Below are positions 23,860 to 32,996 of a DNA stretch of 50,305 nucleotides, in pieces. Each line of letters opens with the position of its first letter. Position 1 is the first letter of the stretch. The translations under genes were made by a program, and so were the position numbers. The stretch comes from a virus: positions 1 to 50,305 of the IMG/VR virus record IMGVR_UViG_3300033388_003879; one strand, written 5' to 3'. Below the pieces are notes generated by a model. It searched no databases and was not told the DNA's origin. It was given only the letters and a program-made list of their open reading frames with translations.

Positions 23860-24021
23860 ATGAGCGAAAAAAGATTTGAACTTAGAGAAGAAATAACCAA
23901 ACATACCATTCAGTATTTTGATAATTTGGAAGAAGCTCAGGAAGAACAAAATCTTCTAAATAAAATAAATACAGAAGTTTACGATATAGAATGGAAGGAA
24001 ATTAGACTTCCTATGTTCTAA
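23860..24021 (+). CDS. Small hypothetical protein
   Basis: 53 aa, MSEKRFELREEITKHTIQYF, then a helix EEAQEEQNLLNKINTEV. First product of the 23801 promoter. Resembles short phage proteins of the DUF type with a Y/F-D-N..EA pattern. Unknown. Confidence 0.55.
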   Translation: MSEKRFELREEITKHTIQYFDNLEEAQEEQNLLNKINTEVYDIEWKEIRLPMF

Positions 24022-24034
24022 GAGGAGTTAGAAT

Positions 24035-24172
24035 ATGAAAGATTCAAAGCAATGTGATATATGCATCCATGATCCTTTAGATCCATCACCTGATACATAT
24101 TGTGATGATTGTGATAATGGAAGTGAATATATTGAGAACAGTATTAAAGTAGAAATTCTTCGAAATAAATAA
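24035..24172 (+). CDS. Small zinc-knuckle protein
   Basis: 45 aa with CDICIHDPLDPSPDTYCDDC, a likely four-cysteine site, as in short phage zinc proteins. AGAGGAG ribosome site. Precedes hairpin element copy B. Confidence 0.6.
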   Translation: MKDSKQCDICIHDPLDPSPDTYCDDCDNGSEYIENSIKVEILRNK

Positions 24173-24181
24173 TACATTTAT

Positions 24182-24212
24182 AGCCAGCATTTTAAAAAGT
24201 GCTGGTCAGTAA
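24182..24212 (+). ncRNA. 31-nt conserved hairpin element, copy B
   Basis: AGCC...GGTCAGTAA flanks identical to copy A (9901-9931), stem CCAGCA/TGCTGG. In both places the element follows a small ORF driven by a TTGACATACT promoter and precedes an AGAGAGGT ribosome site. Confidence 0.5.
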
Positions 24213-24235
24213 ATTGATTATTAAGAGAGGTGAAC

Positions 24236-24421
24236 ATGTTAGATAAAGAATGTCGTAAGTGTGGACCAGACAATAGAGATTTCAATAAACTATTCGAAGA
24301 TTTTTGTGAAAAGTATAGTCTTGTTTATGACTTTACAAGACTTGGAGTTTGCGGTTACAAATCGAACGAAACACACAGAGCTTTCATTGTATGGTCAAAG
24401 GCTTCAGGTATTGGAAAATGA
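24236..24421 (+). CDS. Small hypothetical protein
   Basis: 61 aa, ATG after AGAGAGGTGA. CRKCG near the N-terminus; alternating helix/strand. Overlaps the next gene (ATGA). Confidence 0.6.
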   Translation: MLDKECRKCGPDNRDFNKLFEDFCEKYSLVYDFTRLGVCGYKSNETHRAFIVWSKASGIGK

Positions 24422-24564
24422 AAAAACGATTTATCAAAAGAAAACTTAACCGGATCAATGAGAAAATTCTCAACACTGAAATCGGAAAAGACGGTAGATT
24501 GATGCAGCTATGCAAGGAAAAGAACCAACTGGAAAATGCTTTTTATAGAGAGGTGCGGAAGTGA
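24418..24564 (+). CDS. Small basic helical protein
   Basis: 48 aa, KKRFIKRKLNRINEKI at the start, then LCKEKNQLENAFYREV. Coupled to both neighbours. Confidence 0.5.
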   Translation: MKKRFIKRKLNRINEKILNTEIGKDGRLMQLCKEKNQLENAFYREVRK

Positions 24565-24743
24565 AATGTAATTGCCAGTACTGCCAACAAAAAGAGCAGA
24601 TTGAAAAACTCGAAGTCCAACTCGATGCAAATAAAAATTGTCTGAATTGTACTAATTATATTTTCATTCCTGCCGATGTCTTAGGTTGCAAGATACATCA
24701 TAGAGAATACCGGAAAATATGTGATAAATGGAGTCAGTTGTGA
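24561..24743 (+). CDS. Small zinc-binding protein
   Basis: 60 aa, GTG start overlapping the previous stop. CNCQYC then CLNCTNYIFIPADVLGC, KICDKW: two CxxC-type pairs with a coiled helix between. Unknown. Confidence 0.6.
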   Translation: MKCNCQYCQQKEQIEKLEVQLDANKNCLNCTNYIFIPADVLGCKIHHREYRKICDKWSQL

Positions 24744-25075
24744 AATGCAATACTAAAAAATGTAAATCGGAATGTTGCGGAATTGTTCCTATTGAAAAAG
24801 TAATTGTTGATTTGCATAGGAATAAAATAAATCCAAAGGCTCAAATAATTGAAGCGACAGAATCTACAAATATTGTTTTTATTCCTGAATCTGGTAGATG
24901 TGGATTTTTAAACTCTGATCACGGATGCAAAATTTACAATGATAGGCCATTGGTTTGTAGGATGTTCGGCGAAAAAGGAAATATCAATCCGCTGTTGAAA
25001 TGTCCGCATTTAAACCAGTTAACCGAAACCGATAAAAAGATTGTAGATAGCAAGTTTAAAAACTTAGGACTATAA
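24740..25075 (+). CDS. YkgJ-like cysteine cluster protein
   Basis: 111 aa. Pattern C..CC near the N-terminus, then FIPESGRCGFLNSDHGCKIY, NDRPLVCRMFG and a later CPH matches the YkgJ/CxxCxxCC family, thought to bind iron or zinc. GTG at 24740 overlaps the upstream stop with GGAG six bases ahead; ATG at 24728 is alternative. Ends before a strong terminator. Confidence 0.75.
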   Translation: MKCNTKKCKSECCGIVPIEKVIVDLHRNKINPKAQIIEATESTNIVFIPESGRCGFLNSDHGCKIYNDRPLVCRMFGEKGNINPLLKCPHLNQLTETDKKIVDSKFKNLGL

Positions 25076-25080
25076 TATCC

Positions 25081-25107
25081 AATCCAGCTTAACCGCTGGA
25101 TTTTTTT
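25081..25107 (+). terminator. Intrinsic terminator
   Basis: AATCCAGC, six-base loop, GCTGGATT, T run. Closes the 23860-25075 operon. Confidence 0.85.
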
Positions 25108-25130
25108 ATCTCTCAGGTTTACAATAAATC

Positions 25131-25541
25131 ATGAGCTGTATTAAAACACAATATACCAGACAAATTATCTGCGCCGGTGCTATGAAAGATTTTATAGAAA
25201 TCTATAGCCGGACTATGCCAGGAACTAATCCAGGTAAAACAATTCAATCAGAACCTACATTCAGCAAAATATCTGACTTTGCCGGTCTACTGGAAGCTGT
25301 CAGAGCAACACCACGTCAAGAAGGTGTGAATCCTTCAGATGCAGATACACATGTCTGCTACATTCCATATGATCAAACCGTATTTGAAATGGATAAGAAT
25401 AAATTCTTCATTAAAATCACTCGCACTCGATCACGGTATTTTAAATTTACTGCTGTTATGGACTGGGGCGAACAGGAACAATATTTACAGATACGATTGA
25501 ATGAAACAGGGTTTTCAGATTTGGAGGCTAGCGGTGGCTAA
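25131..25541 (+). CDS. Head-tail stopper / joining protein
   Basis: 136 aa. Middle LLEAVRATPRQEGVNPSDAD then THVCYIPYDQTVFEMDKNKF and YFKFTAVMDWGEQEQYLQIR follow the phage head-tail joining (SPP1 gp16-like) beta-barrel pattern, in which H..yir...I......I......Y.i......d.....L.i...E recurs. Position after the connector supports this. Confidence 0.65.
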   Translation: MSCIKTQYTRQIICAGAMKDFIEIYSRTMPGTNPGKTIQSEPTFSKISDFAGLLEAVRATPRQEGVNPSDADTHVCYIPYDQTVFEMDKNKFFIKITRTRSRYFKFTAVMDWGEQEQYLQIRLNETGFSDLEASGG

Positions 25542-25950
25542 TAATCCGAGTGCTAATTATACTCAAGAAATAATGATTAGAGAATTAGAAAAACATAAAG
25601 ATAATATACGGCTCGCTTTAAAAGTTCATGGTAAAAAAGTCACTGTGAAATTAAAAAGCACTATTAAAACAGCCAGAGGAACCGGTACTAAATACCCGAA
25701 TCTACCCAATAGATCATCTGCACCGGGAGAAATTCCCGTTAGTCAGTCCGGTAAATTAGAACGCGGTTTCGGATATAAATCGAGAGTTAATGAATTGCTG
25801 GTATTTAATAAAGCCACGAGCAGCGGTGCGCCATATCCTTTATTTTTGAATGAAGGTACAAGTAAAATGAAACCACGGCAATATTTTGATAATACAATTG
25901 AATCTATGAATATGCTGTTATATGTCGATTTACAGAATATATTTCATTGA
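25534..25950 (+). CDS. HK97 gp10-like minor tail/neck protein
   Basis: 138 aa. GTG at 25534 with GGAGG six bases ahead. Sequence pattern: N-terminal helix, a basic stretch, SSAPGEIPVSQSGKLERGFG and APYPLFLNEGTSKMKPRQYF, the last typical of gp10-like proteins (Ya..vE.GT.km..rPf). Role: neck/tail-tube attachment. Confidence 0.8.
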   Translation: MANNPSANYTQEIMIRELEKHKDNIRLALKVHGKKVTVKLKSTIKTARGTGTKYPNLPNRSSAPGEIPVSQSGKLERGFGYKSRVNELLVFNKATSSGAPYPLFLNEGTSKMKPRQYFDNTIESMNMLLYVDLQNIFH

Positions 25951-25975
25951 TAAAATTTTGGATGTGGATTATATT
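25947..25975 (+). promoter_or_regulatory. Promoter of structured RNA
   Basis: TTGATA, 17 bases, TATATT, placing the start about base 25982, exactly where the first hairpin begins. Confidence 0.6.
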
Positions 25976-25981
25976 TAAATA

Positions 25982-26147
25982 GTCCTAGTCGAGGCTAGGA
26001 CAGCACGGCTGGAGAGCTTAGACCGAAAGGTGGATACTTGAAAAATGGGTGATACGCTACCCTGAGTGCGAGATTGAAAAACCTATTTTTAGGTTAATCC
26101 GATTTGATCACGGATTATTTAAAGCTTCTCAGACGAGAGGCTTTTTT
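25982..26147 (+). ncRNA. Candidate 166-nt structured RNA with own promoter and terminator
   Basis: No ORF. Consecutive hairpins: GTCCTAG/CTAGGAC (25982-25988/25995-26001); GGGTG/TACCC (26047-26051/26058-26062); AACCTA/TAGGTT (26080-26085/26090-26095); AATCCG/CGGATT (26096-26101/26111-26116); terminator AAGCTTCTC/GAGAGGCTT with T run (26122-26130/26135-26147). A sigma70 promoter lies directly upstream. The piece between 26002 and 26046 (GGAGAGC, GACCGAAAGG) has no obvious stem and may be the interacting or conserved part. No match to a riboswitch class I know. Confidence 0.6.
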
Positions 26148-26177
26148 ATTCTAATCATAAAATAATTAAATATTCTC

Positions 26178-26205
26178 TTGACATACCATGATATAAAGAT
26201 TAGAT
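26178..26205 (+). promoter_or_regulatory. TTGACATACC promoter
   Basis: TTGACA, 16 bases, TTAGAT. The same TCTTGACATAC core as the others but with no standard gene start behind it; a GATAAT-gtag-ATTATC hairpin follows at 26226-26241. Confidence 0.55.
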
Positions 26206-26211
26206 TTAGGT

Positions 26212-26320
26212 AGATTAAAGAGCTTGATAATGTAGATTATCCATATTATATTTAACGTATCTGAACTAACCACTCAGGTGCATAGAACATGGAATTTTTT
26301 AAAAGCATTGAGCGCTTTTT
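26212..26320 (+). ncRNA. Possible short RNA ending at AAAAGC hairpin
   Basis: Promoter at 26178, then hairpin 26226-26241, then AAAAGC/GCTTTT with T run (26301-26306/26314-26320) as terminator. A larger ACATGGAA/TTCCATGT pair (26287-26294/26331-26338) encloses the last hairpin. A second similar hairpin AAGCG-CTGAG-TGCTT lies at 26365-26379. Overlaps a possible small ORF. Confidence 0.35.
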
Positions 26321-26423
26321 ATGTCAGATCTTCCATGTGTCTGGCTCCCTATGTGGTGTAGGGGAAGCGCTGAGTGCTTTTCTTATTGTTCAGCTCGTGT
26401 TTTGTAACGGTTTGACGTAATAG
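26289..26423 (+). CDS. Possible small hydrophobic peptide
   Basis: 44 codons: MEFFKSIERFLCQIFHVSGS followed by a hydrophobic tail ALSAFLIVQLVF. An AGGTG lies nine bases before the ATG. Overlaps hairpins that could themselves be the functional element, so coding status is uncertain. A small membrane peptide encoded on a structured RNA would resemble a type I toxin, but no antisense RNA was identified. Confidence 0.25.
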
Positions 26424-26537
26424 TAGTCTATCCACCGTAGTACAGGTAAAGGTGAGTAGGAGCACTGCAAGTAGAGATAAATGTATCTTGACAGGTTCGG
26501 TATAGGTGGGTTTTAAAAAAAAAAGAGAGGATAGAAT
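26424..26537 (+). other. Leader region without gene
   Basis: No gene seen. A TTGACA at 26488-26493 lacks a good -10 partner; an A10 tract precedes the GAGAGGA ribosome site of the next gene. Confidence 0.4.
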
Positions 26538-26762
26538 ATGAAAGGAGGGAGAGGTAACAAGAGAATGAGGAGAGTGTGCCGAAAGAAAAGGACATTCCAC
26601 TCTTTGCAAGATGCTTATGATTCATCTTTTGCCTTAAATAGAAGAGGCTTTATGTTGAAGCCTTATGCTTGTGGGAACCATTGGCATTTATGTAAAAGAT
26701 CAAAAGAAGAACGATTGATGATAATATTTGATAAAATCGAAAATGAAAGGAAGAATAGATGA
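26538..26762 (+). CDS. Small conserved phage protein with CG.HWHL motif
   Basis: 74 aa. Basic N-terminus, then KRTFHSLQDAYDSSFALNRR and YACGNHWHLCKRS: the Y.C..CG.WHL..R pattern of short, widespread phage zinc-ribbon proteins. Coupled to the next gene by ATGA. Confidence 0.65.
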   Translation: MKGGRGNKRMRRVCRKKRTFHSLQDAYDSSFALNRRGFMLKPYACGNHWHLCKRSKEERLMIIFDKIENERKNR

Positions 26763-26995
26763 AAATATTTACAAAAAAGAATTTTATGAGATTTATGGGA
26801 ATAGCATTTATGTATATCCCAGTATGGTCGGCTGTTAAGTTGTATCAAATATATAGCGGTACTGTTTCCTTTTCTGGACTAGACATGATAATGTTGGTTG
26901 GGTACATAGGGGCAAGCTTTTTTATAAAGGCTGTAGATCTTATTATTACCGGAAATTCTGGCACATTGACAATTGAGTTAAACAAACGTAGTTAA
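26759..26995 (+). CDS. Small membrane protein
   Basis: 78 aa with two hydrophobic segments (FMRFMGIAFMYIPVWSAV and LDMIMLVGYIGASFFIKAV). Followed by a TTCG-loop terminator. Unknown. Confidence 0.6.
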   Translation: MKIFTKKNFMRFMGIAFMYIPVWSAVKLYQIYSGTVSFSGLDMIMLVGYIGASFFIKAVDLIITGNSGTLTIELNKRS

Positions 26996-27000
26996 TATAG

Positions 27001-27028
27001 AGCTTCTCTTCGGAGAGGCTTTTTTTTT
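27001..27028 (+). terminator. Intrinsic terminator with TTCG loop
   Basis: AGCTTCTC TTCG GAGAGGCT then T8. The arm sequence is the same as in the terminator at 26122-26147. Confidence 0.85.
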
Positions 27029-27029
27029 A
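27013..27029 (+). repeat. 17-nt direct repeat flanking 49-aa gene, copy 1
   Basis: GAGAGGCTTTTTTTTTA, the right arm and T run of the terminator. Identical copy at 27191-27207 on the other side of the small gene. Confidence 0.75.
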
Positions 27030-27038
27030 GGAGGCATT

Positions 27039-27188
27039 ATGAATAATTTAGAAATATATAATCTACTGGAAATTATTAAATCTAAAACTAAGGAAATAAA
27101 AGCTAATCCTGAAGTCTCTAGAAAACTATTGATAAACGCCGGAATATATAATACTGATGGAACTCTGACTGATAATTATTCCATATAA
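27039..27188 (+). CDS. Small conserved phage protein
   Basis: 49 aa. EIIKSKTKEIKANPEVSRKL then AGIYNTDGTLTDNY is close to a very widespread short phage protein (I..K..A..ASKEVS..FLI.AGI.....G.L...Y) of unknown function. Ribosome site AGGAGG. Flanked by 17-nt direct repeats, suggesting insertion as a unit. Confidence 0.75.
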   Translation: MNNLEIYNLLEIIKSKTKEIKANPEVSRKLLINAGIYNTDGTLTDNYSI

Positions 27189-27190
27189 CT

Positions 27191-27207
27191 GAGAGGCTTT
27201 TTTTTTA
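27191..27207 (+). repeat. 17-nt direct repeat flanking 49-aa gene, copy 2
   Basis: GAGAGGCTTTTTTTTTA again, here without the left arm that would make a terminator. Confidence 0.75.
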
Positions 27208-27232
27208 TTCCATCCTGATCTATAATTACAGC

Positions 27233-28312
27233 ATGGCAACATTCTACAGTCCAGTAGCAATTCAAGAGCACTTAATGAAATATCTCCCACGTCTAACCTC
27301 CCGATTTTCAGACAACGCAGCTGTCAGTGCTGAAATAGTCGCCGGTGATCCTCAAGTATTAAGAATTACAGATAATAGCCACGGCTTAGATGTTGACGAT
27401 CAAATAATTTTAGTTGACGGTTTAATTGATAATGTCATAACAAATGTAGTTGATAATAACGATGGATCATTCAGATTTACAACTGCTGAAGAACATGATT
27501 TAACTCAGGATTATACAACTGAAATTGAACTAGCCGGTTTTACAGATAGTCAATTTAACGGAAAATTCCCACTACTGGCAGTTCCCAGTCGTAATTTATT
27601 CGAAATAGAATTACCTTCCCTTCCAGCTTTAACCGGAGATCCGGTATTGAGAGAAGACAGAGAAATCGGAATAAACGGAAATTTTAAAATTACCACTATA
27701 ATAGACACAGATATTTATGAAATAGAGTTAACCGGAAAACCTTTCTTTACTCCTCAGACAATACCGATTTTAATAAGAGCAAAAGATTTTAATATTGATA
27801 TTGTCGCAAATGCGGAAAGGGCAACTGATAAATATCAGACAGATGGAGCCGGTAAAAACTGGATCTTTATTATAATGGGAGTTTCCAATATTTCAAAAGA
27901 TCAGGATATTACATCAGATGCAATTCAACAGAACGGGGCAGGAACTGAATCAAGGCCATTGAATATGAATAACTTTTCCTTAAATGTATATATCGATACA
28001 ACAAAAGATATCGGTGGAGCAGAGGCAATACAACTGGCATATGAGGAAATTTATCAGATATTACTTGCTGTGTGTTCTGGAATCAGGTTTGATGATTTCG
28101 GTGAATCAAGATATCTAACAACACTGATAAATCATGAGCTTGATTTATATAAGAAATCCTTTTATTCCCATATGTACACATTTGAATATAATTTTGAAAT
28201 TACTCAGGAAGAACAGTTCTTAACTAAATTTATTGAGTCCAGAAGATTTAATGATTCTGATTTAAGCTTTTCAGAACAACAGGACGGCTCAACTCAGGAT
28301 TTAGACGGTTAA
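27233..28312 (+). CDS. Putative tail terminator with inserted beta modules
   Basis: 359 aa. The C-terminal ~170 residues (KNWIFIIMGVSNISKDQDIT, NNFSLNVYIDTTKDIGGAEA, YSHMYTFEYNFEIT) fit a tail-completion/terminator fold located just before the sheath gene. Residues ~25-165 hold two or three repeats of a beta module (HGLDVDDQIILVDG, HDLTQDYTTEIELAGF, FTDSQFNGKFPL) that also occurs in the baseplate J protein at 43023. The terminator call is by position and pattern; length exceeds the usual ~150-200 aa because of the modules. Confidence 0.55.
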   Translation: MATFYSPVAIQEHLMKYLPRLTSRFSDNAAVSAEIVAGDPQVLRITDNSHGLDVDDQIILVDGLIDNVITNVVDNNDGSFRFTTAEEHDLTQDYTTEIELAGFTDSQFNGKFPLLAVPSRNLFEIELPSLPALTGDPVLREDREIGINGNFKITTIIDTDIYEIELTGKPFFTPQTIPILIRAKDFNIDIVANAERATDKYQTDGAGKNWIFIIMGVSNISKDQDITSDAIQQNGAGTESRPLNMNNFSLNVYIDTTKDIGGAEAIQLAYEEIYQILLAVCSGIRFDDFGESRYLTTLINHELDLYKKSFYSHMYTFEYNFEITQEEQFLTKFIESRRFNDSDLSFSEQQDGSTQDLDG

Positions 28313-28374: not shown

Positions 28375-28617
28375 ATGGCGAAGAAATACATAGTGATTAA
28401 GCCTTTCGGAAATCACAAAGAGGGCGACATACTGGAAGAGTCCAGAATTGTCCGCAGGAAATTGCAGGAGGGTGGCACTGTGGAAGAGTTGACAGACGAG
28501 CTTCTGAAGAAAAAAAAGACAGAAAAAGAAAAACGAAATAAGAAATTCCAGAAAATGCAGAAACCTGTGAAAAATAAAATGGAATTCGACGATTCAAAAA
28601 ATAAGGGAGATAAATAA
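28375..28617 (+). CDS. Small phage protein before sheath
   Basis: 80 aa. YIVIKPFGNHKEGDILEESR resembles short phage proteins found next to sheath genes in Mu-like phages (gp38-type position). C-terminus lysine-rich. Stop overlaps the sheath start. Confidence 0.55.
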   Translation: MAKKYIVIKPFGNHKEGDILEESRIVRRKLQEGGTVEELTDELLKKKKTEKEKRNKKFQKMQKPVKNKMEFDDSKNKGDK

Positions 28618-30191
28618 TGGGTACAACTTCCCTACCTTCAGTTCAACAGCAATTACTTGCAGCAATAGCAGCAATAGCAGCTGAACCATTTAGAGTTATG
28701 ATTAATGGCCAGATCGGAGTCGGTGGAACCGCCGTATCCGGCCAGACATATAAAGAAGTCCAGGATTTGACAAATGATGAAGTTTTCACCTTATTCGGTG
28801 CAAACAGTTATCTGTCAAATACGATCCAGAAAAAAAGAGCTATCTGTAAGAAAAGATTTTCTATATGGGTAATCGCTCTTGATCCTGCCGCCGGGGATGC
28901 TGCAGAACTTGCTCTTACATACACCGGAACCGGTGCAACCGAAGCGAAAATAATGAAAGTTAAAGCGATTTCTGAAAAAGAATTCACTTTTAACATTTCT
29001 ATAGCTGTCGGGGATAGTGCTAATGATGTAGCTCTAGCAGTAGAAGCCGCTCTTGATGCATTACCTGCTTATTTCCCTGCTTCAAATGTTGTTGCCCTCG
29101 ATGTTGTAACTTTAACAGCCTCAGACCTCGGAACTCTCGGAAATAAATATACTGTTGTTCATGAAAATATTCCCGACGGAATAATTGTAAATGGGAACAT
29201 AACAGAAGATAGAGCGCAGTTTGCCGGTGGTGCAACTGATCCGGTTGTTACTGGAATATTCGATAATGTCCAGGCTACAAGATTTCATCAGATTTTATGG
29301 CCATGGGAATTAACTTTTTCAACTCCTAATGATTTTCTCAGTCCTAGAAACATTATTAATAATGCATTTCTACAGGGTGTTTGTTATATCGGGCTTGATG
29401 GAACAGAAGCAGAAATTAAAGCTGTTGTAAACGGTGTAACTCCATTAAATAGTTTAAATCTATTTTTCATGGGAAACAGGACAATATCCGGTGTATCTGG
29501 AATCATAGAACCGGCTGACTGGCGCGTGGCAGAGTTTGCAGCAATTGAAGGTCTAAGGCTCACCGATGGCGCATCTATTAGTCAGTATGTCACTGTAGAC
29601 GCTCCACTTGATAATGTCGGGGGATCTGCTCTTGCTTCTCTTGGTTATTATGCAACTCCTCTTGCAAATACTTCTCCTGTACCTCCTGATTTACTTTTCG
29701 ATGAACAGGAACAGAAGAATCTTAAGGCAGATGGTTACACAATAATCGGTGTAAATGAAAGCGCTGATAGTACTATCATGGGTGAAGTGGTAAGTACATA
29801 TAAAAAAGACGATGCCGGTAATGATGATCCTAGTTTTAAGTTTTTAAACTATATTAGAACTGGATGGTTAATACTTGAGATTTATTTCAGAACTGTTAAG
29901 ACATCGTATAAACAATTTAGATTGACTGAAGGTGCTTTAGTTCCCCGTCGTGCAATGGCTAACGCCGGAAGCGTAACAGGTAAATACTTAGGGATCTTTA
30001 AAGAACTAGGTGGACCTGATTTTGTATTAACTCAGGCGGGAGTTGCAGCTGAAAAGAGATTTTCCGATGCGCTTGTAGTAAATACTGATTTATCGGTTGG
30101 TAAAGTTTCCAGTTCTGGAGTATTACCGATAGTGACACAGACAAGAGAATTTGACATGGTATGGCAGATAGCCTTTACCATCGGAGGGTGA
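28617..30191 (+). CDS. Tail sheath protein
   Basis: 524 aa. Mu gpL-type sheath: tail-end sequence YLGIFKELGGPDFVLTQAGV, DLSVGKVSSSGVLPIVTQTR and FDMVWQIAFTIGG; core EILFR-type segment LILEIYFRTVKTSYKQFRLT. Contractile tail evidence. Overlaps the previous gene's stop; the tube gene follows after three bases. Confidence 0.85.
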   Translation: MGTTSLPSVQQQLLAAIAAIAAEPFRVMINGQIGVGGTAVSGQTYKEVQDLTNDEVFTLFGANSYLSNTIQKKRAICKKRFSIWVIALDPAAGDAAELALTYTGTGATEAKIMKVKAISEKEFTFNISIAVGDSANDVALAVEAALDALPAYFPASNVVALDVVTLTASDLGTLGNKYTVVHENIPDGIIVNGNITEDRAQFAGGATDPVVTGIFDNVQATRFHQILWPWELTFSTPNDFLSPRNIINNAFLQGVCYIGLDGTEAEIKAVVNGVTPLNSLNLFFMGNRTISGVSGIIEPADWRVAEFAAIEGLRLTDGASISQYVTVDAPLDNVGGSALASLGYYATPLANTSPVPPDLLFDEQEQKNLKADGYTIIGVNESADSTIMGEVVSTYKKDDAGNDDPSFKFLNYIRTGWLILEIYFRTVKTSYKQFRLTEGALVPRRAMANAGSVTGKYLGIFKELGGPDFVLTQAGVAAEKRFSDALVVNTDLSVGKVSSSGVLPIVTQTREFDMVWQIAFTIGG

Positions 30192-32315: not shown

Positions 32316-32996
32316 ATGAGGATCGAACAAAAACTCGCAATTCCATTGTTTTTAATATCGGTGGGAAATCTTATTAAAGTATTATCAAAGGCATACCCTC
32401 TATGGTATATATCAATATGGGTTTTGCCTTTTTTGGTTATAGCTATAATTCTTGCAGCTATAAAGATAAAAATAAACTACAGAATTTTATCTATCTTCCT
32501 GCTGTTTTTATCTTTTTTCTCTATAGCGTATTCAGAAAAAGATTCAATGGAAGGAATATTTTATTTATTTTATTCCTTGTATATTTCAACTAAGAATAAA
32601 AGAACATATCTTATTTATGGGATAATGTCATCTATAGCAGTGATGCTGAGATTTTATATTTTAAACATGGGATCATCTTCTACTATAAATTACATTGCTG
32701 GTGGCTTATTTATCTCTTTATTCTACTTCCATTTTATACACCCAAAACCAAAATCTAAAACTCTCTACAGAAACCCAGATAAAGTACCTTACGTAGTCGT
32801 GGACATCATGGAACTAAGAATAAAAGGATTCAGGAATAAAGAAATACCAGACAAATTAGGCATAAAATTAACAGAAGCCGGTGTAGGTCAAAAACTAAAG
32901 CGGTGTCGTGATGATCTCGGCATTGCAAGTAACGAAAAATTGGCCTTATACTTAGATAAGAATAATTATATATGTTTAGATAATGACAAATATTAA
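32316..32996 (+). CDS. Membrane-anchored LuxR-type HTH protein
   Basis: 226 aa. Four to five TM helices over residues ~7-140 (IPLFLISVGNLIKV, YISIWVLPFLVIAIILAAIK, ILSIFLLFLSFFSIAY, YIAGGLFISLFYFHF). The cytosolic C-terminus carries a GerE/LuxR helix-turn-helix: VVVDIMELRIKGFRNKEIPD then GIKLTEAGVGQKLKRCRDDL and LALYL. A membrane-bound transcription factor is unusual in a phage; it lies in front of the lysis cassette, so sensing membrane state and timing lysis or late genes is possible (inference). Confidence 0.65.
   Translation: MRIEQKLAIPLFLISVGNLIKVLSKAYPLWYISIWVLPFLVIAIILAAIKIKINYRILSIFLLFLSFFSIAYSEKDSMEGIFYLFYSLYISTKNKRTYLIYGIMSSIAVMLRFYILNMGSSSTINYIAGGLFISLFYFHFIHPKPKSKTLYRNPDKVPYVVVDIMELRIKGFRNKEIPDKLGIKLTEAGVGQKLKRCRDDLGIASNEKLALYLDKNNYICLDNDKY

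Follow-up and report, generated by a model that had tools for sequence, protein, structure and literature searches.

Which RNA could be made from the gap between the neck and tail genes of the virus record IMGVR_UViG_3300033388_003879 (IMG/VR; its positions 1 to 50,305 are the window analysed here), and what would it do? A first-pass annotation, made from the letters alone, had postulated a transcript with its own promoter, a series of stem-loops and a terminator, had assigned it to no known class and had regarded it as a candidate for an undescribed phage RNA. The locus is still best read as a distinct non-coding phage RNA that runs from promoter to terminator; its class, by contrast, is a described one, since by sequence comparison 26045-26082 is a ToxI-type antitoxin unit. 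In type III (ToxIN) systems the antitoxin is a pseudoknot RNA, ToxI, which restrains the RNase toxin ToxN (PMC8860590, PMC3475682). We propose, with a probability of roughly 0.78, that the phage has here an independent gene for a ToxI-type antitoxin without its toxin, an RNA decoy that would neutralise the ToxN of the host during infection. This proposal is supported by the ToxI identity of the unit, the covariation of its pseudoknot, the absence of a recognisable toxN and the repeated occurrence of lone units among unrelated phages.

Identity and structure of the ToxI unit

A blastn search with 25950-26160 returned short matches (around 26043-26079) in Pseudomonas and Enterobacter plasmids, at three places per plasmid, and also between genes in several phages, T4-like ones and others. 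In the plasmids the matched stretch is the ToxI antitoxin repeat and adjoins a gene annotated as a type III ToxN/AbiQ toxin. The unit and its pseudoknot comprise the following features:

26045-26082, plus strand: unit 2, a canonical ToxI repeat (H-type pseudoknot and 3' tail), 34.4 bits and E=5.2e-11 with covariance model R1
26047-26062, 26048-26061, 26049-26060 and 26050-26059, plus strand: base pairs of pseudoknot stem 1, pair probability 0.84, with homologous pairs in phage and host units
26055-26070, 26056-26069 and 26057-26068, plus strand: base pairs of pseudoknot stem 2, with covariation in homologues

Unit 2, whose tail is GAGAUUGAAA, matched toxIN plasmids at 94.7% in blastn (E=8e-6) and is identical at 32 of 33 positions to the ToxI repeats of P. 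putida pGRT1 and Pseudomonas pBYT5-2, each of which sits beside an annotated ToxN. Model R1 was built from 13 ToxI repeats located upstream of toxN in seven plasmid toxIN loci (pECA1039, pPA21A, two from E. coli, two from Klebsiella and one from Pantoea) that were chosen by ToxN protein similarity; the loci from Pseudomonas and Enterobacter, which the window sequence had matched, were left out. Two qualifications apply: it was via the window that the ToxN query protein used to collect the loci had been reached, and pKpnJMC, a member of the set of seven plasmids, is also a very weak blastn match of the window. When the whole 50-kb window was searched with R1 and filters off, only 26045-26082 was significant, the next match having E=1.3, and unit 2 conforms to the sequence and stem 1 of the toxN-linked repeats.

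The statement that no known class matches holds for the standard collections and fails for type III antitoxins. Rfam, at gathering and relaxed thresholds, gave only sub-threshold matches, mostly at the terminator end of the locus, and a scan of the locus for transfer RNA (tRNA) and transfer-messenger RNA found none. Even with the original ToxI locus, that of plasmid pECA1039, no family of Rfam 15 attains its threshold, which explains the blank Rfam result here.

The stems of the pseudoknot were assigned by mapping unit 2 to the published ToxI numbering (PMC8860590, PMC3475682). Every pair of stem 1 and stem 2 is present in unit 2, which is thus predicted from its sequence to form an H-type pseudoknot. 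In the host ToxI repeats two pairs of stem 2 are changed on both sides, C-G alternating with U-A at one and G-C with A-U at the next, and among the phage units stem 2 shows C-G in 20 cases and U-A in 7; in neither set was the covariation score reached by any of 500 shuffles. The covariation check suggested in the first-pass annotation therefore came out positive for stem 2. The predicted fold does not leave the segment singled out there for conservation, 26002-26046, simply unpaired, and conservation is found in the stretch that follows it, unit 2.

Unit 2 is preceded by a second, poorer unit, and both contribute motifs of the type cut by ToxN:

26011-26045, plus strand: unit 1, a degenerate ToxI-like repeat, in phase and 37 nt upstream of unit 2, with the third pair of stem 2 broken
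26040-26046, plus strand: GAAAAAU, an A-rich ToxN-type cleavage motif 5' of unit 2, supplied by unit 1
26076-26082, plus strand: GAAAAAC, a ToxN-type motif at the 3' end of unit 2

With a position-specific scoring matrix, unit 1 stands out against local shuffles (p=2e-4) and only 3 of 100,530 window positions score as high. It was not detected by R1 at E<=10 and is therefore reported as degenerate only. Its tail, TTGAAAAA, closes unit 2 as well, 36 nt further on. ToxN cuts between AA and AU, GAA and AU, or AAA and AA (PMC8860590), and with GAAAAA at 26040-26045 and 26076-26081 unit 2 appears to be bordered on both sides by the A-rich motif type that ToxN cuts in its own precursor.

Solitary units in phages and the missing toxin gene

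A search with a 17-base ToxI pattern found 30 viral contigs, some of them near-duplicates; the complement of stem 2 was present in 30/30 and a GAAA-like tail in 28/30, although the pattern constrains neither the outer stem 2 pair nor the tail. After removal of redundancy, 28 of 29 lone-unit loci were intergenic, and the flanking open reading frames (ORFs) lay on the same strand in 40/50. That the unit of the window resembles ToxI by chance, within an unrelated structured RNA, has a practically negligible probability. The 17-base pattern does match by chance in large collections: it occurs at 81 places in genome contigs, most of which look like chance, with the stem 2 complement in only 46 and the tail as well in 23. 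Such an origin of unit 2 is strongly contradicted by its E value with a model built from other loci and by its near-identity to the plasmid repeats.

Among public phage records, 44 were matched by the window-type ToxI unit and 229 by the pECA1039-type unit; these lists share at least five records and hold many near-identical genomes or duplicate accessions, so that the counts are not independent events. Only two phage records yielded ToxN. Lone units occur in at least five unrelated phage lineages, and annotated carriers belong to the Straboviridae (Kanagawavirus, Lazarusvirus), the Demerecviridae, Kuravirus and the Zobellviridae or are rv5-like (phiTE). The unit lies inside a tRNA cluster in Sugarlandvirus (Demerecviridae) and between terminase and portal in Kuravirus; the lone ToxI-like units in phage records are unannotated. 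An exact match of 37-39 bp that covers the ToxI unit only is common to Salmonella phage 7-11, Kuravirus XT32 and Erwinia phage IT22, as expected, on sequence grounds, of a short module under strong selection. We consider it fairly probable that lone ToxI units are widespread, repeatedly acquired RNA anti-defence genes, modules of about 38 nt that move between unrelated phages with tails matching the ToxN variants of their hosts, the locus of the window now being a self-contained gene from promoter to terminator.

Two ToxI-like units lie beneath annotated tRNA genes, tRNA-Ser and tRNA-Ala, in Erwinia phage IT22 (OP586623, 66806-66844) and Pseudomonas phage PPSC2 (MF893340, 95896-95933), by overlap or mis-annotation. 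A cyanobacterial contig (Symploca sp.) carries a lone ToxI unit near 1097-1119 on the minus strand, and ToxN was not detected in its 8-kb locus.

The ToxN family PF13958 was absent from the record. It was also missing in the unit-bearing sequences examined, namely 30 viral contigs, two phage isolates and a further eight contigs; several of the contigs are fragments, and two toxIN plasmids, run as controls, were both positive. A tblastn search for ToxN in the window was likewise negative and no toxN remnant was seen. Judged from its sequence, the locus is thus not a complete toxIN system and appears to be a pseudo-ToxI, a unit in a phage genome that lacks toxN. These results bear on two alternatives. 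The phage itself could have a working toxin-antitoxin system of which the unit is the antitoxin part, with a diverged or distant toxin; the order of promoter, unit and terminator is like that of a toxI leader and the contig may be incomplete, whereas ToxN is missing by both searches, the 74-aa ORF at 26538-26762 has no family match and an integrase or serine recombinase was not found, and we regard this explanation as distinctly unlikely. Alternatively, a toxIN locus once carried or gained by recombination could have lost toxN and left a functionless antitoxin relic. Unit 1 is indeed degenerate, and phiTE can take up ToxI from a plasmid by recombination (PMC3475682). However, unit 2 retains all stem pairs and the conserved tail, a toxN remnant is missing from the window, and lone units recur, mostly in intergenic positions, in unrelated phages from which ToxN is nearly absent; decay is therefore an unlikely explanation.

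Decoy model and relation to known systems

The model of a phage-encoded decoy presumes that the predicted promoter is used during infection, that the transcript is processed and bound by ToxN, and that the host carries a matching toxIN. The short transcript (about 25982-26147) would carry one complete ToxI pseudoknot unit with ToxN-type motifs on both flanks. Host transcription stops in infection, host ToxI is then expected to run out, and the RNase ToxN would be freed. The phage transcript would serve ToxN as a substitute and be cut by it at the GAAA motifs; the released pseudoknot unit would stay in the active site of ToxN like its own ToxI, leaving ToxN inactive, so that abortive infection would fail.

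Phage mimicry of ToxI without the toxin is already known from phiTE, in which an expanded pseudo-ToxI of 4.5-5.5 repeats suppresses ToxIN abortive infection (Blower et al. 2012, PMC3475682). Both phages carry a toxin-less ToxI-like sequence at an intergenic site. The wild-type phiTE sequence, however, consists of 1.5 repeats that are out of phase and contain no complete pseudoknot unit, whereas the locus described here, in an unrelated phage, has a complete unit, flanking cleavage motifs and a predicted promoter and terminator. New, as far as the literature searched shows, are the complete unit in an apparent small gene of its own and the breadth of lone units. The host ToxI of pGRT1, pBYT5-2, Enterobacter plasmids and P. 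atrosepticum pECA1039 shares the pseudoknot core, the conserved 3' tail, the A-rich motif and a downstream terminator with the locus; host toxIN loci differ in having several tandem repeats followed by toxN.

Several points weigh against a functional decoy. A single-unit or wild-type phiTE pseudo-ToxI failed against the ToxN of pECA1039, and the wild-type failure was put down to the tail changes C27G and U28A and to the lack of a complete unit (PMC3475682). Host antitoxins are tandem arrays, and here there is one canonical unit with one degenerate in-phase unit. Stem 2 would face competition from a pairing of 26003-26006 with 26066-26069 that the pseudoknot-free fold predicts with probability 0.61. 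The linear contig may be incomplete, so that toxN could lie beyond it, and the promoter counts as weak evidence. As to the specificity of such RNAs, the phiTE unit (2949-2984) is identical to the ToxI repeats of the P. atrosepticum plasmid pPA21A (284-750). It may therefore mimic a different ToxIN variant and properly match a ToxN other than the pECA1039 toxin against which it was tested; by the same logic, the unit of the window should act on a pGRT1-like ToxN.

A role in the carrier cell, in which the RNA would silence a toxIN plasmid or favour its transfer by the phage, finds a parallel in the phiTE escape phages, which acquired the ability to transduce ToxIN replicons (PMC3475682). Lysogeny genes were not found in the record and the site among structural genes suggests lytic expression; we judge this role very improbable.

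Other phage inhibitors resemble the proposed decoy in part. TifA of T4 is likewise a phage-encoded ToxN inhibitor, but it acts as a protein, by tethering ToxN to cellular RNA (PMC9391042, PMC10853763). In the Racr RNA anti-CRISPRs a solitary repeat of a host defence system is likewise used by phages as an RNA mimic (PMC10651486); they target CRISPR-Cas and not an RNase toxin. If the proposal is true, lone ToxI units would be to type III toxins what Racr is to CRISPR-Cas. By what means other phages evade ToxIN, and whether such evasion is as common as ToxIN itself, was a question raised by Blower et al. (2012; PMC3475682); a report on how widespread such decoys are was not found in the literature searched, which covers only part of the field. 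Lone units in many unrelated phages would mean that RNA mimicry is a common route of escape from ToxIN, already present in wild phages. The matching of defence and counter-defence would be readable from a sequence of 33 nt, as the ToxN that is resisted should follow from the tail of the ToxI unit, and the units would form a class of short phage RNA genes invisible to protein annotation and Rfam.

Promoter, hairpins and neighbouring genes

The unit lies in a short predicted transcript that is delimited by the following features:

25947-25975, plus strand: sigma70-type promoter TTGATA-17-TATATT, predicted start at about 25982
25982-26001, plus strand: 5' hairpin GUCCUAGU-CGAG-GCUAGGAC of 8 bp at the predicted 5' end, pair probability 0.99
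26121-26144, plus strand: intrinsic terminator, in which a 10-bp stem closes a 4-nt loop and is followed by a T run

The promoter noted in the first-pass annotation is present as described. Its exact hexamer pair and spacing occur twice in 50 kb (0.08 expected), both times in the same intergenic gap, and a looser scan of 24000-28000 gave 22 promoters against 16.7+/-4.9 expected, which is not above chance; we regard the promoter as plausible, not proven, from its sequence. The postulated stem-loop series is borne out by the minimum free energy (MFE) fold of 25982-26147, with stem-loops at 25982-26001, 26047-26062, 26081-26094 and 26095-26117 in addition to the terminator; the first of these is a possible 5' stabiliser. 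The MFE of -53.5 kcal/mol (z -3.7) beats 200/200 shuffles. Taken alone, 25982-26093 has a z of only -1.98, so that much of the folding excess stems from the 3' end and structure by itself is insufficient for the claim. Terminator-type sites number 7 in 4 kb, compared with 1.7+/-1.4 in shuffles. As predicted, an ORF of at least 40 aa is absent from 25951-26288.

The placement between neck and tail genes was also correct: the left neighbour (25501-25950) encodes a Neck1/tail-completion protein (phrog_5) and the tail sheath gene lies at 28617-30191. The phage is contractile-tailed, with an HK97-type portal, protease and capsid. The best match of the portal, in a Desulfofustis phage, has about 26% identity; blastn of the 3-kb neighbourhood gave no match in phages, and close relatives of tail sheath and capsid were not found in viral contigs. 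The next ORF with a phage-like placement is the 74-aa frame mentioned above. Among the tail and lysis genes, the ORF at 32316-32996 appears by eye to encode a membrane protein with a C-terminal LuxR-type helix-turn-helix and has no Pfam match.

Two intrinsic terminators, 26121-26144 and 26999-27022, are near-copies of each other (AAAGCTTCTC..GAGAGGCTTT and AGAGCTTCTC..GAGAGGCTTT). Downstream of the second exact TTGATA-17-TATATT copy, at 26224-26252, lies a non-coding region with strong predicted folding (26259-26393, z -4.56); relatives of this region were not found in phages or plasmids, and from its sequence it is possibly a second small RNA.
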